A DNA stretch of 39,127 bases from Methylococcaceae bacterium. Its GTDB lineage: Bacteria > Pseudomonadota > Gammaproteobacteria > Methylococcales > Methylomonadaceae. A program made the translations under genes and the position numbers. The DNA lies in NCBI GenBank assembly GCA_029937975.1, contig JAPYOW010000015.1:1-39127 (forward strand). Direction: 5' to 3'. Positions 10,105 to 26,556 of this stretch are shown piece by piece. Below the pieces are notes generated by a model. That model was not told where the DNA came from, made no database searches, and worked only from the letters and a program-made list of their open reading frames with translations. How positions within the stretch are numbered: position 1 is the first letter of the stretch; the number at the start of each line of letters is the position of its first letter.

Positions 10105-11763
<1,659 letters not shown>

Positions 11764-11791
11764 GTGTTGCTTAACAGCTAGCGTTACCAGA

Positions 11792-11826
11792 AAGCCCCGG
11801 TTATGTTACATAACCGGGGCTTTTTT
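11792..11826 (+). terminator. Strong intrinsic terminator of groESL
   Basis: A 14-bp perfect stem (11792-11805 with 11809-11822, core GCCCCGGTTATG) closes a TTA loop and runs into six T at 11821-11826. It lies 28 bp after the groEL stop codon. Confidence 0.95.
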
Positions 11827-12054
11827 ATGCCAGTTAGCTTTGTACCTAAAGCAATCAGCCCATAGTCACACGTCCCCGTTTTTGAAATGTACTTGCCAGA
11901 AAGATATTTATTGGCAAGCATAAAAAAACACGTTTCTAATATTACGACTACCGATGATTATCGGCTTGTTATTTTTGAGGCTTGCCTGTAGCAAAGGGCG
12001 ATTAAGCGGCCTAATAACAAAAATGGCTGTCTATATTTCCAGGCCTTTAGAATA
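11827..12054. other. Gap between the groEL terminator and the tRNA fragment
   Basis: No gene is seen. Two small stem-loops are present: CTTGCCA/TGGCAAG with a 12-13-nt loop near 11891-11918, and CCGAT/ATCGG with a 4-nt loop near 11951-11964. The stretch GGCTTGC...CAAAGGGC...GATTAA near 11979-12005 resembles part of the ppsA-ilvA gap near 2562-2596. Confidence 0.4.
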
Positions 12055-12099
12055 TGGTGCGGATGACAGGACTTGAGCCTGTGACCGGTGGCTTACAAA
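12055..12099 (-). pseudogene. 3' half of a tRNA-Thr(UGU) gene, possible attachment-site scar
   Basis: Read on the minus strand, 45 bases reproduce a tRNA from the anticodon loop to CCA: loop TTTGTAA (anticodon UGU), 3' anticodon strand GCCAC, variable loop CGGTC, T stem ACAGG/CCTGT around CTCAAGT, acceptor strand CATCCGC, discriminator A, and CCA (12055-12057). The T stem pairs perfectly. The predicted partner GCGGATG begins with G1 and C2, which fits threonine tRNA identity. The 5' half is absent: the bases before the loop are the end of the hydrolase gene, whose stop codon is at 12100-12102. The usual T54 is C, consistent with loss of function. Integration into tRNA genes leaves exactly this kind of 3' duplicate. 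Confidence 0.75.
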
Positions 12100-12771
12100 T
12101 TAACTTTTTTGCTTAATCCAGTCTGCACTTTTCTGAATAATTTCATCCAATACGGATTGTTCTGTACGTTCAATACGTTTAAGCAAATTAAAAGAGTGAT
12201 TGCCACCTTCAATAATATGAAGGGTGGGTTTGGGTGAAATGGTGGATAGAAGGGGTTCAAAAACATCCAGTTTACATAAGGAATCACGTGTTCCTTGAAA
12301 GAACAGCATAGGTTCGTGAATCACTTTTAATAGATCAAAGCGAGGTTTATTAGGTTTTCCAGGCGCATGCAAAGGAAATCCAAATAAAATAATACCGGCG
12401 TATAAATCTTCTTTACAAGCCAGAATAGTCGCGTATTTTCCGCCCATACTTTTACCGGATAGAAAAATTTGTTTACGGCTAACACCGGTTTTTTCTATCA
12501 CGGCTTCAATGACTTTATGCCAGGTCTCTTCCAGTACATGAGGTGTGTTCGGTGCTTTAGCACCGCGTTCCATGTAGGGGAAGTTGAATTTGACGGTTAA
12601 CACATTATGTTTGGCTATACCTTCATGCATTTGGCTGACAAATAGGGAGTTCATATCACGCCCTGCACCATGTGCAATAATTAGAACTGATTGATATTGT
12701 TCTGGAATTAACCATACCGATGAAATATCAGCTTTCTGGGTAATGTTAATGGTATGGTGTTCAGTTTTCAT
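12100..12771 (-). CDS. Alpha/beta hydrolase (COG3571/TEX30-KANL3-like)
   Basis: A 223-residue serine-hydrolase-fold protein of unknown substrate. It shows the oxyanion segment IIAHGAGRDMNS near 30-41, the nucleophile elbow LSGKSMGGKYA near 104-114 (Ser as nucleophile), an acid region after FFQGTRDSLC near 164-173, and the catalytic His in IEGGNHSFN near 187-195. No signal peptide is visible, so it is probably cytoplasmic. Its stop codon directly abuts the tRNA-Thr half gene, so its 3' end lies at a recombination junction. The C-terminal helix looks complete, so truncation is not evident. It stands alone, with a 545-bp gap upstream. Confidence 0.85.
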   Translation of the reverse strand: MKTEHHTINITQKADISSVWLIPEQYQSVLIIAHGAGRDMNSLFVSQMHEGIAKHNVLTVKFNFPYMERGAKAPNTPHVLEETWHKVIEAVIEKTGVSRKQIFLSGKSMGGKYATILACKEDLYAGIILFGFPLHAPGKPNKPRFDLLKVIHEPMLFFQGTRDSLCKLDVFEPLLSTISPKPTLHIIEGGNHSFNLLKRIERTEQSVLDEIIQKSADWIKQKS

Positions 12772-13316
12772 AATGTGTTTTTGAAAAAATAGCGATGAGT
12801 TAATTCTTCTTTGAGTCTGTGCAAGTGAATTTTTGAGCGTTGTTTATGTATCAAGTACATCCTTTAATCACTATATGTTAACAAATAGACTGACAGTTTA
12901 ACTTAATTTTTGTTGTTAATATGGGGGGATCGCGCGCGCGTTCGCTATTACCCTATAGGCTCATCCCTGCAGATAACGCCTGATAACAGGTTTCAAGCGG
13001 GGTTTATTCATGACGGGTGACTGCAACAGAGGCCTCAGCGCTTCACCAAAACTGTTGAGAACTTGCCGGTTAACAATGCAAGCCGAGGCATAGAAAGCGG
13101 TGGCTGTGCAACGTATAATGATCTGCCAGATATCTGTGTTTACTTGTTTTAGCGTCGCGACTCATGTCTTAAGCTATATTTCTTATCAGGATTAGCCCTG
13201 ACTTATTGTCTGCTATACAGTGCTTTTAGGCATAGAACTGTTTTGCTGATGAAATTGTGCTCCAGTAGTCTGTATAAGGGGAAGTATCATTTTGAAATTA
13301 ATGAAAGGAGGCCATA
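12772..13316. other. 545-bp gap upstream of cydB
   Basis: No gene is seen, and in particular no cydA or cydA fragment that I can recognise in any frame. A run of alternating GC (gatcgcgcgcgcg, about 12928-12940) is notable. The block GAGAACTTGCC followed by GGTTAACAAT (13057-13077) resembles 3135-3164 in the ppsA-ilvA gap. An AAGGAGG ribosome-binding site just before 13317 belongs to cydB. Confidence 0.5.
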
Positions 13317-14426
13317 ATGCTGTTTGATTATGAAACCTTGCGAATCATTTGGTGGGCATTTTTAGGTTTACTGTTAATGGGGTTTGCTATCATGAGCGGG
13401 GTTTATCTGGGGGTCGGTGTATTACTCCCATTGGTAGCTAAAACTGATGAGGAAAGAGGCGTTCTTATTAATGCGACCGGCTCAGGTTGGGATGGTAATC
13501 AGCTGTGGTTGGTGCTAGCTGGCGGCGTTTTATTTGCAGCTTGGCCGGTGGCTTATGCGGTGTCATTTTCGACCCTGTTTTTTGTCTTGTTACTGAGCTT
13601 GTTTAGCTTGTTTTTAAGTCCCTTAGGTTTTGGTTGTCGCAGTAAATTGAGCACTAAGAGATGGCGTGGCAACTGGGATAAGGCATTGTTTGTGGGGGGG
13701 GTGGTTCCTGCCGTGATGTTTGGCATTGCTTTTGGTAATCTACTGACAGGGCTTCCCTTTTATTTGGAGGGGGATATGCGCATTATTTACCAGGGATCGT
13801 TCTGGAGTTTGTTCCAACCGTTTGCGTTGTTAGCCGGATTGCTGAGTTTGTCCATGTTGGTCATGCAGGGTGCAGTCTACCTGCAAATTAAAACCGTAGA
13901 GGTGATCAATGACCGGGCTAAAAAAGTCGTTTTTATTTCTACTCTCGTGACGCTGGCTTTATTTGCATTAGCCGGCTATTGGGTCACGTTGATGGAGGGC
14001 TATCACATTAGCTCTGAAGTTTTTCCTGATGGCCCTTCCAATCCGCTACTCAAAACAGTGAAACAGGCGCCGGGATTATGGCTGGATAATTATGGACACT
14101 TAGCGGGTTTATGGGCTATCCCCGGATGTACCTTTGTTGCGGGTTTAATGACCTGGGGTTTATCGAAACGGGATCAACCAGAAGGTGCGTTTATTTTTAG
14201 TTCTATTGCGATCGCATCAATTATTTTAACGGCAGGGTGCTCCATGTTTCCATTCATTGCTCCATCCAGTCTGGTTGTTAATCACTCTTTAACCGTCTGG
14301 GATGCAAGCGCTAGCCTGTGGACTTTGAATTTAATGTTCTGGGGTGCCGTTATTTGCTGGCCTTTCATTTTGATATATAGCGGCTGGATTTTTCGCGCGT
14401 TGAGGTGCAAGCTGGCAACTGAATAG
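13317..14426 (+). CDS. cydB: Cytochrome bd oxidase subunit II (CydB), orphan and divergent
   Basis: Integral membrane subunit of the cytochrome bd quinol oxidase, which in the family pairs with haem-bearing CydA. At 369 residues it is close to the usual 378, with about eight membrane helices. It retains WDGNQLWLVLAGG near 58, FAAWPVAYA, the AFGNLLTGLPF segment, LLAGLLSLSMLVMQGAVYLQ, and the C-terminal AGCSMFPFIAPSS. A near-ideal AAGGAGG precedes the ATG. Compared from memory with E. coli CydB, several conserved charged positions are changed: the DGFD motif is SGVY (27-30), RP-x-GFD is SPLGFGC, so the equivalents of D26, D29, R100 and D105 are lost, while D58 is kept. cydA is not upstream. The frame is intact, so it is either a divergent paralogue or a gene drifting toward loss. 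Confidence 0.9.
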   Translation: MLFDYETLRIIWWAFLGLLLMGFAIMSGVYLGVGVLLPLVAKTDEERGVLINATGSGWDGNQLWLVLAGGVLFAAWPVAYAVSFSTLFFVLLLSLFSLFLSPLGFGCRSKLSTKRWRGNWDKALFVGGVVPAVMFGIAFGNLLTGLPFYLEGDMRIIYQGSFWSLFQPFALLAGLLSLSMLVMQGAVYLQIKTVEVINDRAKKVVFISTLVTLALFALAGYWVTLMEGYHISSEVFPDGPSNPLLKTVKQAPGLWLDNYGHLAGLWAIPGCTFVAGLMTWGLSKRDQPEGAFIFSSIAIASIILTAGCSMFPFIAPSSLVVNHSLTVWDASASLWTLNLMFWGAVICWPFILIYSGWIFRALRCKLATE

Positions 14427-14466
14427 ATGCATAAAGACAAGCATAGGGCTTATTAGGGGGGCTGGT

Positions 14467-14565
14467 ATGTGGTTTTTTTAGCTAGATACTGGGGTGTTTC
14501 TTGGGGCATCATTAAGGTGTTGCGGTTCAAGGCTGAAGAAGCCTTGACGGAAGAAAATGTGGCGC
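14467..14565 (+). pseudogene. cydX: Decayed cydX (cytochrome bd small subunit)
   Basis: Directly after cydB, an AGGGGGG ribosome-binding site and ATG begin MWFF, the typical start of CydX (MWYFxWILG). The frame then breaks. Removing one T from the T7 run at 14473-14479 gives MWFFS-stop-ILGCFLG, with TAG in place of the conserved Trp codon TGG. Removing one G from the G4 run at 14503-14506 continues as IIKVLRFKAEEALTEE, resembling the family's IINVLWxEAEEAL with Trp to Arg and Glu to Lys changes. The reading thus needs two frame shifts and one nonsense change, all simple to explain. CydX is a 30-40 residue helix needed for bd oxidase stability. Confidence rests on the WILG-like core, the position and the ribosome-binding site. 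Confidence 0.6.
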
Positions 14566-15082
14566 TGAATACTGTGACGCAGTTATTCACCTGGGAAGGT
14601 GTTTTGCTACGCTGACCATGAGAAAATCCATAATTCACCGGGTAATGGCTTGCCTTTATCTTGGTTATATATTAGTTTGAGGTCTTTAAGTTGAAATACC
14701 TATTGGCAGCGCATGAAATAGAAACTCCGTTGCTCAATGTTGAAGTTACAATTAAAGCGGATATCCGGATTGGGCCTGGATATGGCGGCAAGCGTCGGGA
14801 AACAGGGCTTTGTATCAGTTTTACCCGGGGTGGCTTACGAGCGCAGAAATGATGGGCAATAGAATCAACAGAACCTTGTCGGTCATGTTGATTTCCCGTA
14901 GACGCGGTACTGCTGGCCATTGGAGTCGGTGTTGTTGCATATGCGCAGGATGCCGGACAGATTTCAGAAACAGCCCTGTGAGAGAGTGATGTTAAAGTCC
15001 TGATGAATATGACTGTTAGCCAGTGCTTTCAGTCGACAATGGCTTACATCTAAAATAATAAAAACAATAAAAGAGCAGAAAA
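14566..15082. other. Non-coding stretch between cydX remnant and the TauE gene
   Basis: About 517 bp with no recognised gene. A 20-codon frame from the ATG at 14618 (MRKSIIHRVMACLYLGYILV, then stop) has signal-peptide-like character but ends at once. A 53-codon frame with a TTG start at 14691 and a GAGG upstream is unrecognised. Both may be relics of a decayed gene. Nothing here can be assigned. Confidence 0.4.
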
Positions 15083-25638: not shown

Positions 25639-26556
25639 ATGGCCATGCATAATAATGCACAACAGGAAATTAATGATTTTTTTAAATATCTGGAAATCCA
25701 AAAACGCGCATCTATCCATACGCTCGATAGTTATCAACGGGATTTAAGGCAACTAAGGCATTATTGTGAAAATCAAGAGCTAAGACGATGGGATGACCTT
25801 CAGGCTCTTGATGTGCGTAATCATATTGCAAATCGGCACAGAAAAGGCCTTAGTAGCAAATCATTACAGCGTGAATTGTCTGCTATTCGCAGTTTTTATA
25901 ACTATCTTTTACAACAGCATAAGGTCAATACCAATCCTGCCGCGCATATCAGAGCCCCTAAACAGCCGCGAAAACTGCCCAGATTATTGGATGTGGACCA
26001 GCTGACAGGCATGCTGGAAGCTCCGGCGGATTCCATGTTGGAAATAAGAGACCTGGCTATTTTTGAGCTTTTCTATTCATCAGGACTGCGGTTAAGTGAA
26101 CTGGCCGCCATCAATATTAATGATCTGGATTTTTCTTTACGATCTTTACGTGTGCGCTCGGGTAAAGGTGGCAAACAAAGAGAGTTGCCGGTCGGTCGAC
26201 AGGCATTGAGAGCTATTAACGAGTGGCTTAAATTTCGTAAGCCCATACATGGCGTGGATGAAAATGCACTATTCACCTCCAAACAAGGCCGTCGATTAGG
26301 TCAGCGTAGCATTCAACTCCGATTAGACCGGTGGTGTAAAAAACGGGGATTACCTGAACATGTACATCCTCATATGTTACGGCATTCATTTGCCAGTCAT
26401 TTGTTAGAATCCTGTCAGGATATCAGGGCTGTGCAAGAATTGTTAGGGCATAGTCATATTAGTACCACCCAGATATATACTCATTTGGATTTTCAGCATT
26501 TAGCTGAGGTTTATGACCGAACTCACCCTAGAGCAAAAAATAAAAAGAATAAATGA
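25639..26556 (+). CDS. xerC: Tyrosine recombinase XerC
   Basis: Site-specific recombinase that with XerD resolves chromosome dimers at dif. The 305-residue protein has the SAM-like DNA-binding domain (about 5-100) and the catalytic domain with Arg151 (SSGLRLSEL), a lysine in GKGGKQRELP, H245 and R248 in HPHMLRHSFA, H271 in LGHSHISTTQIY and the nucleophile Tyr280. Position after dapF and the DUF484 gene marks it as the housekeeping XerC, not a mobile-element integrase. Confidence 0.97.
   Translation: MAMHNNAQQEINDFFKYLEIQKRASIHTLDSYQRDLRQLRHYCENQELRRWDDLQALDVRNHIANRHRKGLSSKSLQRELSAIRSFYNYLLQQHKVNTNPAAHIRAPKQPRKLPRLLDVDQLTGMLEAPADSMLEIRDLAIFELFYSSGLRLSELAAININDLDFSLRSLRVRSGKGGKQRELPVGRQALRAINEWLKFRKPIHGVDENALFTSKQGRRLGQRSIQLRLDRWCKKRGLPEHVHPHMLRHSFASHLLESCQDIRAVQELLGHSHISTTQIYTHLDFQHLAEVYDRTHPRAKNKKNK

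Follow-up and report, generated by a model that had tools for sequence, protein, structure and literature searches.

What event left half a tRNA gene directly behind the stop codon of a protein gene, and on which side of it did any integrated element lie? The locus that raises this question is part of a stretch of 39,127 nucleotides (the window; contig C126) from a Methylococcaceae bacterium, G000, whose genome was assembled to 2.2 Mb in 133 contigs with a completeness of 97.8%. Its genus and genome size are those of G001 and G002, Methylococcales symbionts of sponges (hosts Hymedesmia and Iophon). In sponge symbionts related to the source organism the genomes are reduced, and the DNA specific to single strains, most of it poorly annotated, includes mobile elements, which are often stabilised by toxin-antitoxin systems (PMC6474228). 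Since G000 shares genus and size with such symbionts, debris of the half-tRNA kind is to be expected. The genome was compared with eight congeners (G001 to G008), of which G001 is the sister species and G001 and G002 form the sister pair.

Table 1. Features between groEL and the hydrolase gene (positions in the window).
Feature	Position	Strand	Remarks
groEL	10114..11763	+	native convergent neighbour of the hydrolase gene
Terminator hairpin of groEL	about 11791-11823
Internal hipA (toxin kinase) pseudogene fragment	11827..12024	+	about codons 41-102; stop and frameshifts
Decayed intrinsic terminator of a tRNA-Thr gene	12025..12054	-	first 15 bases as in the tRNA-Thr flank of G001/G002; hairpin lost
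tRNA-Thr(UGU) pseudogene, 3' half	12055..12099	-	anticodon loop TTTGTAA to CCA
Likely joining region AGTTAATTT	12097..12105	-	one base off AGTTGATTT of the tRNA anticodon arm and of the sister hydrolase 3' end
Alpha/beta hydrolase (Abhydrolase_11)	12100..12771	-	native, genus core gene; stop codon abuts the tRNA half

Identity of the tRNA half

Direct reading of the minus strand from 12102 to 12055 gives TAA TTTGTAA GCCAC CGGTC ACAGG CTCAAGT CCTGT CATCCGC A CCA. The hydrolase stop codon TAA (12102-12100) is followed immediately by the 45 bases of the tRNA half (12099-12055), in which the T stem is fully paired (5/5) and T54 is changed to C. The original prediction had described this as half a tRNA-Thr(UGU) gene, running from the anticodon loop to CCA and ending at the hydrolase stop. 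When all tRNAs collected from G000 and G001 were ranked by identity to the half (tRNAs missing from the draft being covered only via G001, G003 and G007), the genome's own intact tRNA-Thr(UGU) came out on top with 36/46 positions. This intact gene, which is single copy among the tRNAs found in G000, is located on contig C93 and reads GCTGATG...CATCAGCTCCA; it had been correctly anticipated, but with the acceptor GCGGATG.

Local alignment of the half to the tRNA-Thr of G001 with its terminator scored 67; none of 2000 shuffles scored above 24, and no other place in the window above 25. Trained on ten tRNA-Thr 3' halves with their terminators, a covariance model matches 12011-12093 with E=1.3e-10 (next match 0.39). 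Since the same model also gives 44 bits to an intact tRNA-Asp of G007, the threonine identity rests on the anticodon, the identity ranking and the flank. A full tRNA or cloverleaf was not predicted in the window by ARAGORN or by Rfam at the gathering threshold, which agrees with the earlier statement that the window contains no complete tRNA-Thr. The exact half obtained weak tmRNA-like scores only in Rfam, so that Rfam alone would have missed it. Judged from its sequence, the minus-strand stretch is confirmed as the 3' half of a tRNA-Thr(UGU) gene.

Other sources of the half were considered as well. Another tRNA was ruled out by the ranking, Thr(UGU) being the best match among the tRNAs from G000 and G001. 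A foreign functional tRNA was rejected, the 34-base core having no exact match, with T54 or with C54, in a genome collection of 84,980 species. The tail and flank of the half found no match in viral contigs, and phages and plasmids yielded weak short matches to the half only.

The terminator beyond CCA

Homology to the tRNA-Thr locus runs past CCA into the tRNA terminator, to about 12025. In the 15 bases that follow CCA there is no difference from the flank of tRNA-Thr(UGU) in the sister species, and the same flank is present in G002. The hairpin at the terminator of the half has a predicted energy of -4.6 kcal/mol (z 0.13) versus -20.3 and -23.2 in intact homologues. Because this hairpin has collapsed the half looks dead, and half and terminator together are in all likelihood a dead copy. 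The proposed old age of the scar is supported. A role as terminator of the hydrolase gene was rejected, as the hairpin is no stabler than those of shuffled sequences. The intact tRNA-Thr(UGU) of G000 retains a normal terminator of its own.

The junction and the replaced stretch

The tRNA and the stop region of the sister-species hydrolase have AGTTGATTT in common: the hydrolase of the sister species ends in AAAAAAGTTGATTTAAC, the tRNA has GCAGTTGATTTGTAA and the window AAAAAAGTTAATTTGTAA. Since AGTTGATTT is common to both presumed parents, the joint should lie somewhere within it, and alignment makes this stretch the likely joining point of tRNA half and hydrolase end. More distant congeners carry TAA instead of TGA at the hydrolase end, and the single A/G difference is therefore uninformative on the position of the joint within the stretch.

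The hydrolase gene was found in all eight congeners (77-91% identity), and in G008 it is convergent with groEL as in the window, at a distance of about 1 kb. For these reasons the gene is native to the genus and not element cargo. The gap between the two genes in G008 is occupied by a pair of small genes for membrane proteins, whose G004 copies belong to the Sulf_transp and DUF6691 families, and this pair is also located 3' of the hydrolase gene in G003, G004, G005 and G007. The corresponding gap in the window is 337 bases long, and its spacer contains no remnants of the pair. Since the pair is gone and a hipA piece and the tRNA half are in place, the foreign or replaced stretch is the one next to groEL, 11827-12099. 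The original prediction had placed the element on the hydrolase side and proposed to see whether 12100-15080 is absent in close relatives; an element on that side is not supported. The hydrolase stretch 12100-12771 is native, and the CydB-like gene adjoining it (13317-14426) is present in five of the eight congeners, on other contigs, and was not found in G001, G002 and G008.

The hipA fragment was detected by tblastn at 11872-11970 (E=2e-8, 61% identity over 33 residues), and its nucleotide alignment scored 96 versus a shuffle maximum of 43. G001 encodes an intact relative of the fragment (L201:4327-5523), next to which stands a small hipB-like gene; downstream are an ORF of 1559 amino acids and short ORFs that were named Cas1/Cas2-like by eye only.

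Integrases and an element in a congener

As predicted, the window contains no mobile-type integrase; its sole integrase-family gene is Xer-like (25639-26556). The contig of the intact tRNA-Thr extends for 3.6 kb beyond the 3' end of that gene, and no integrase was detected there. A search of G000 for an integrase of the G007 type described below yielded weak matches to two Xer-type proteins and one tRNA-Lys-linked integrase only, and no cognate enzyme.

In G007 the same tRNA gene is occupied. Contig C42 carries an intact tRNA-Thr followed by genes for a tyrosine integrase, a TraI_2 relaxase and a HerA-like ATPase, and contig C32 carries ParA and DUF2857 genes and a displaced tRNA-Thr 3' half with its native terminator (element coordinates L115:9654-14296 and L114:8780-13909). 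The repeat comprises 44 exact bases, from the anticodon arm through CCATAT. We infer from this geometry that the contigs represent the two ends of one ICE-like element. Crossover centred on the anticodon is one of the common classes among known subsites (Islander, PMC4383910). These data support tRNA-Thr(UGU) as an attachment site in the genus, and the attachment-site geometry originally proposed for the window half gains support from the G007 element.

Two further loci were observed. On contig C70 of G000 (L140:1-1440) a tRNA-Lys(UUU)-like 3' end is truncated by the start of the contig, and 137 bases beyond it begins a gene for an integrase of 416 amino acids; this is probably a tRNA-Lys island. 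On contig C99 of G003 (L141:54-1241) a tRNA-Asn gene and its terminator precede a gene of the integrase family, which may mark a further tRNA-linked integration.

Origin of the half

The reading we put forward, and to which we give an even chance, is that of a non-functional scar: an old copy of the tRNA-Thr(UGU) 3' half with its terminator, left by an element that used tRNA-Thr(UGU) as attB and stranded in the decaying groEL-hydrolase spacer. An integrative element would have recombined in the anticodon arm as in G007, duplicating the 3' half, and would later have been lost. A deletion or rearrangement at the shared AGTTRATTT may then have brought half and hydrolase stop region together, removing the ancestral membrane-protein pair and leaving the hipA remnant. 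In favour of this origin are the identity of half and terminator, the terminator collapse and the loss of the Sulf_transp/DUF6691 pair from the spacer. The G007 element in the same tRNA argues for it too, both halves starting at the anticodon arm, a known crossover subsite (PMC4383910), as do the adjoining hipA toxin-gene debris and the reduced genomes and often toxin-antitoxin-stabilised mobile elements of related symbionts (PMC6474228). Against it stand the missing G007-like integrase and the DNA 5' of the half, which is a native gene and not an element. The normal terminator of the intact tRNA-Thr implies that the terminator was duplicated too, an outcome not produced by simple displacement of the G007 type. 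Moreover, intact tRNA and half are on separate contigs of the 133, with no relative placement.

With no cognate integrase in G000 and the intact tRNA-Thr still in possession of its own terminator, a rearrangement that needed no integrase is a serious rival. Illegitimate recombination at AGTTGATTT during genome decay would have duplicated or relocated a piece of the tRNA-Thr locus, an account that we consider possible, at clearly less than an even chance. It explains why the copy comprises both half and terminator although the intact gene still has a terminator of its own, and the 9-mer shared at the junction fits it. The surroundings are in keeping with such a history: debris of several origins abuts at the site, other rearrangements are found nearby (in G002 groEL is on the other side of the hydrolase gene, about 5 kb away), and the 3' side of tRNA-Thr shows no conservation among G000, G006, G004, G008 and the sister pair. 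On the other hand, the copy begins in the anticodon arm, which many integrases use as their cutting site, and in G007 an element occupies this tRNA; that chance picked the point is possible but not favoured. An element specific for tRNA-Thr might instead have entered the 3' end of the hydrolase gene, in the stop codon region, using AGTTGATTT as a mimic of the anticodon arm and leaving the reading frame intact; the half would then be the attP copy of the element, which, perhaps carrying hipA, stood towards groEL until it was lost. This would suit a native hydrolase gene with the foreign stretch on the groEL side, and the left arm and the first three anticodon-loop bases do match. We judge it unlikely, since the loop TTTGTAA agrees with TTTAACA of the sister hydrolase in 4/7 positions, which is poor for a tyrosine recombinase, and the flank is the chromosomal tRNA-Thr terminator, not element sequence as in G007. 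Finally, a complete extra tRNA-Thr gene could have stood here and lost its 5' half by deletion, which would fit a tail, T stem and terminator that derive from a formerly functional gene; but no congener examined has a tRNA-Thr at the hydrolase 3' end, and this already disfavoured history is very improbable.

The locus as such is ordinary old genome debris with little import beyond this lineage, one more case of mobile-element debris in a reduced genome if the scar reading holds. It points to tRNA-Thr(UGU) as a site of integration in this methanotroph genus and shows that, after deletions, tRNA polarity alone no longer tells on which side a lost element lay.

Comparison with known systems

Functional tRNA genes are predicted as full cloverleaves, unlike the half. 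Islander islands (PMC4383910) have the intact cognate tRNA, correctly oriented, at a distance of 2-200 kb on the same replicon, a tyrosine integrase between tRNA and fragment and island DNA at the 5' side of the fragment. Here the contig of the half holds no island, integrase or intact tRNA, no integrase is encoded beside the intact tRNA on C93 either, and the genome's only mobile-type integrase is at the tRNA-Lys end; the half abuts a hydrolase gene native to the genus. In agreement with the Islander definition, the genome has at another place an intact version of the tRNA gene of which the half is a 3' fragment, and like the displaced 3' tDNA fragments of Islander the half starts in the anticodon arm, ends with CCA and runs into the native terminator. 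In the ICE-like element of G007 the half with its terminator is 92% identical to the intact locus of G000 and adjoins the element genes for ParA and DUF2857, whereas the window half is 78% identical to that locus, with a broken terminator and no element. Common to both are the tRNA gene, the breakpoint region and a displaced 3' half that keeps its native terminator.
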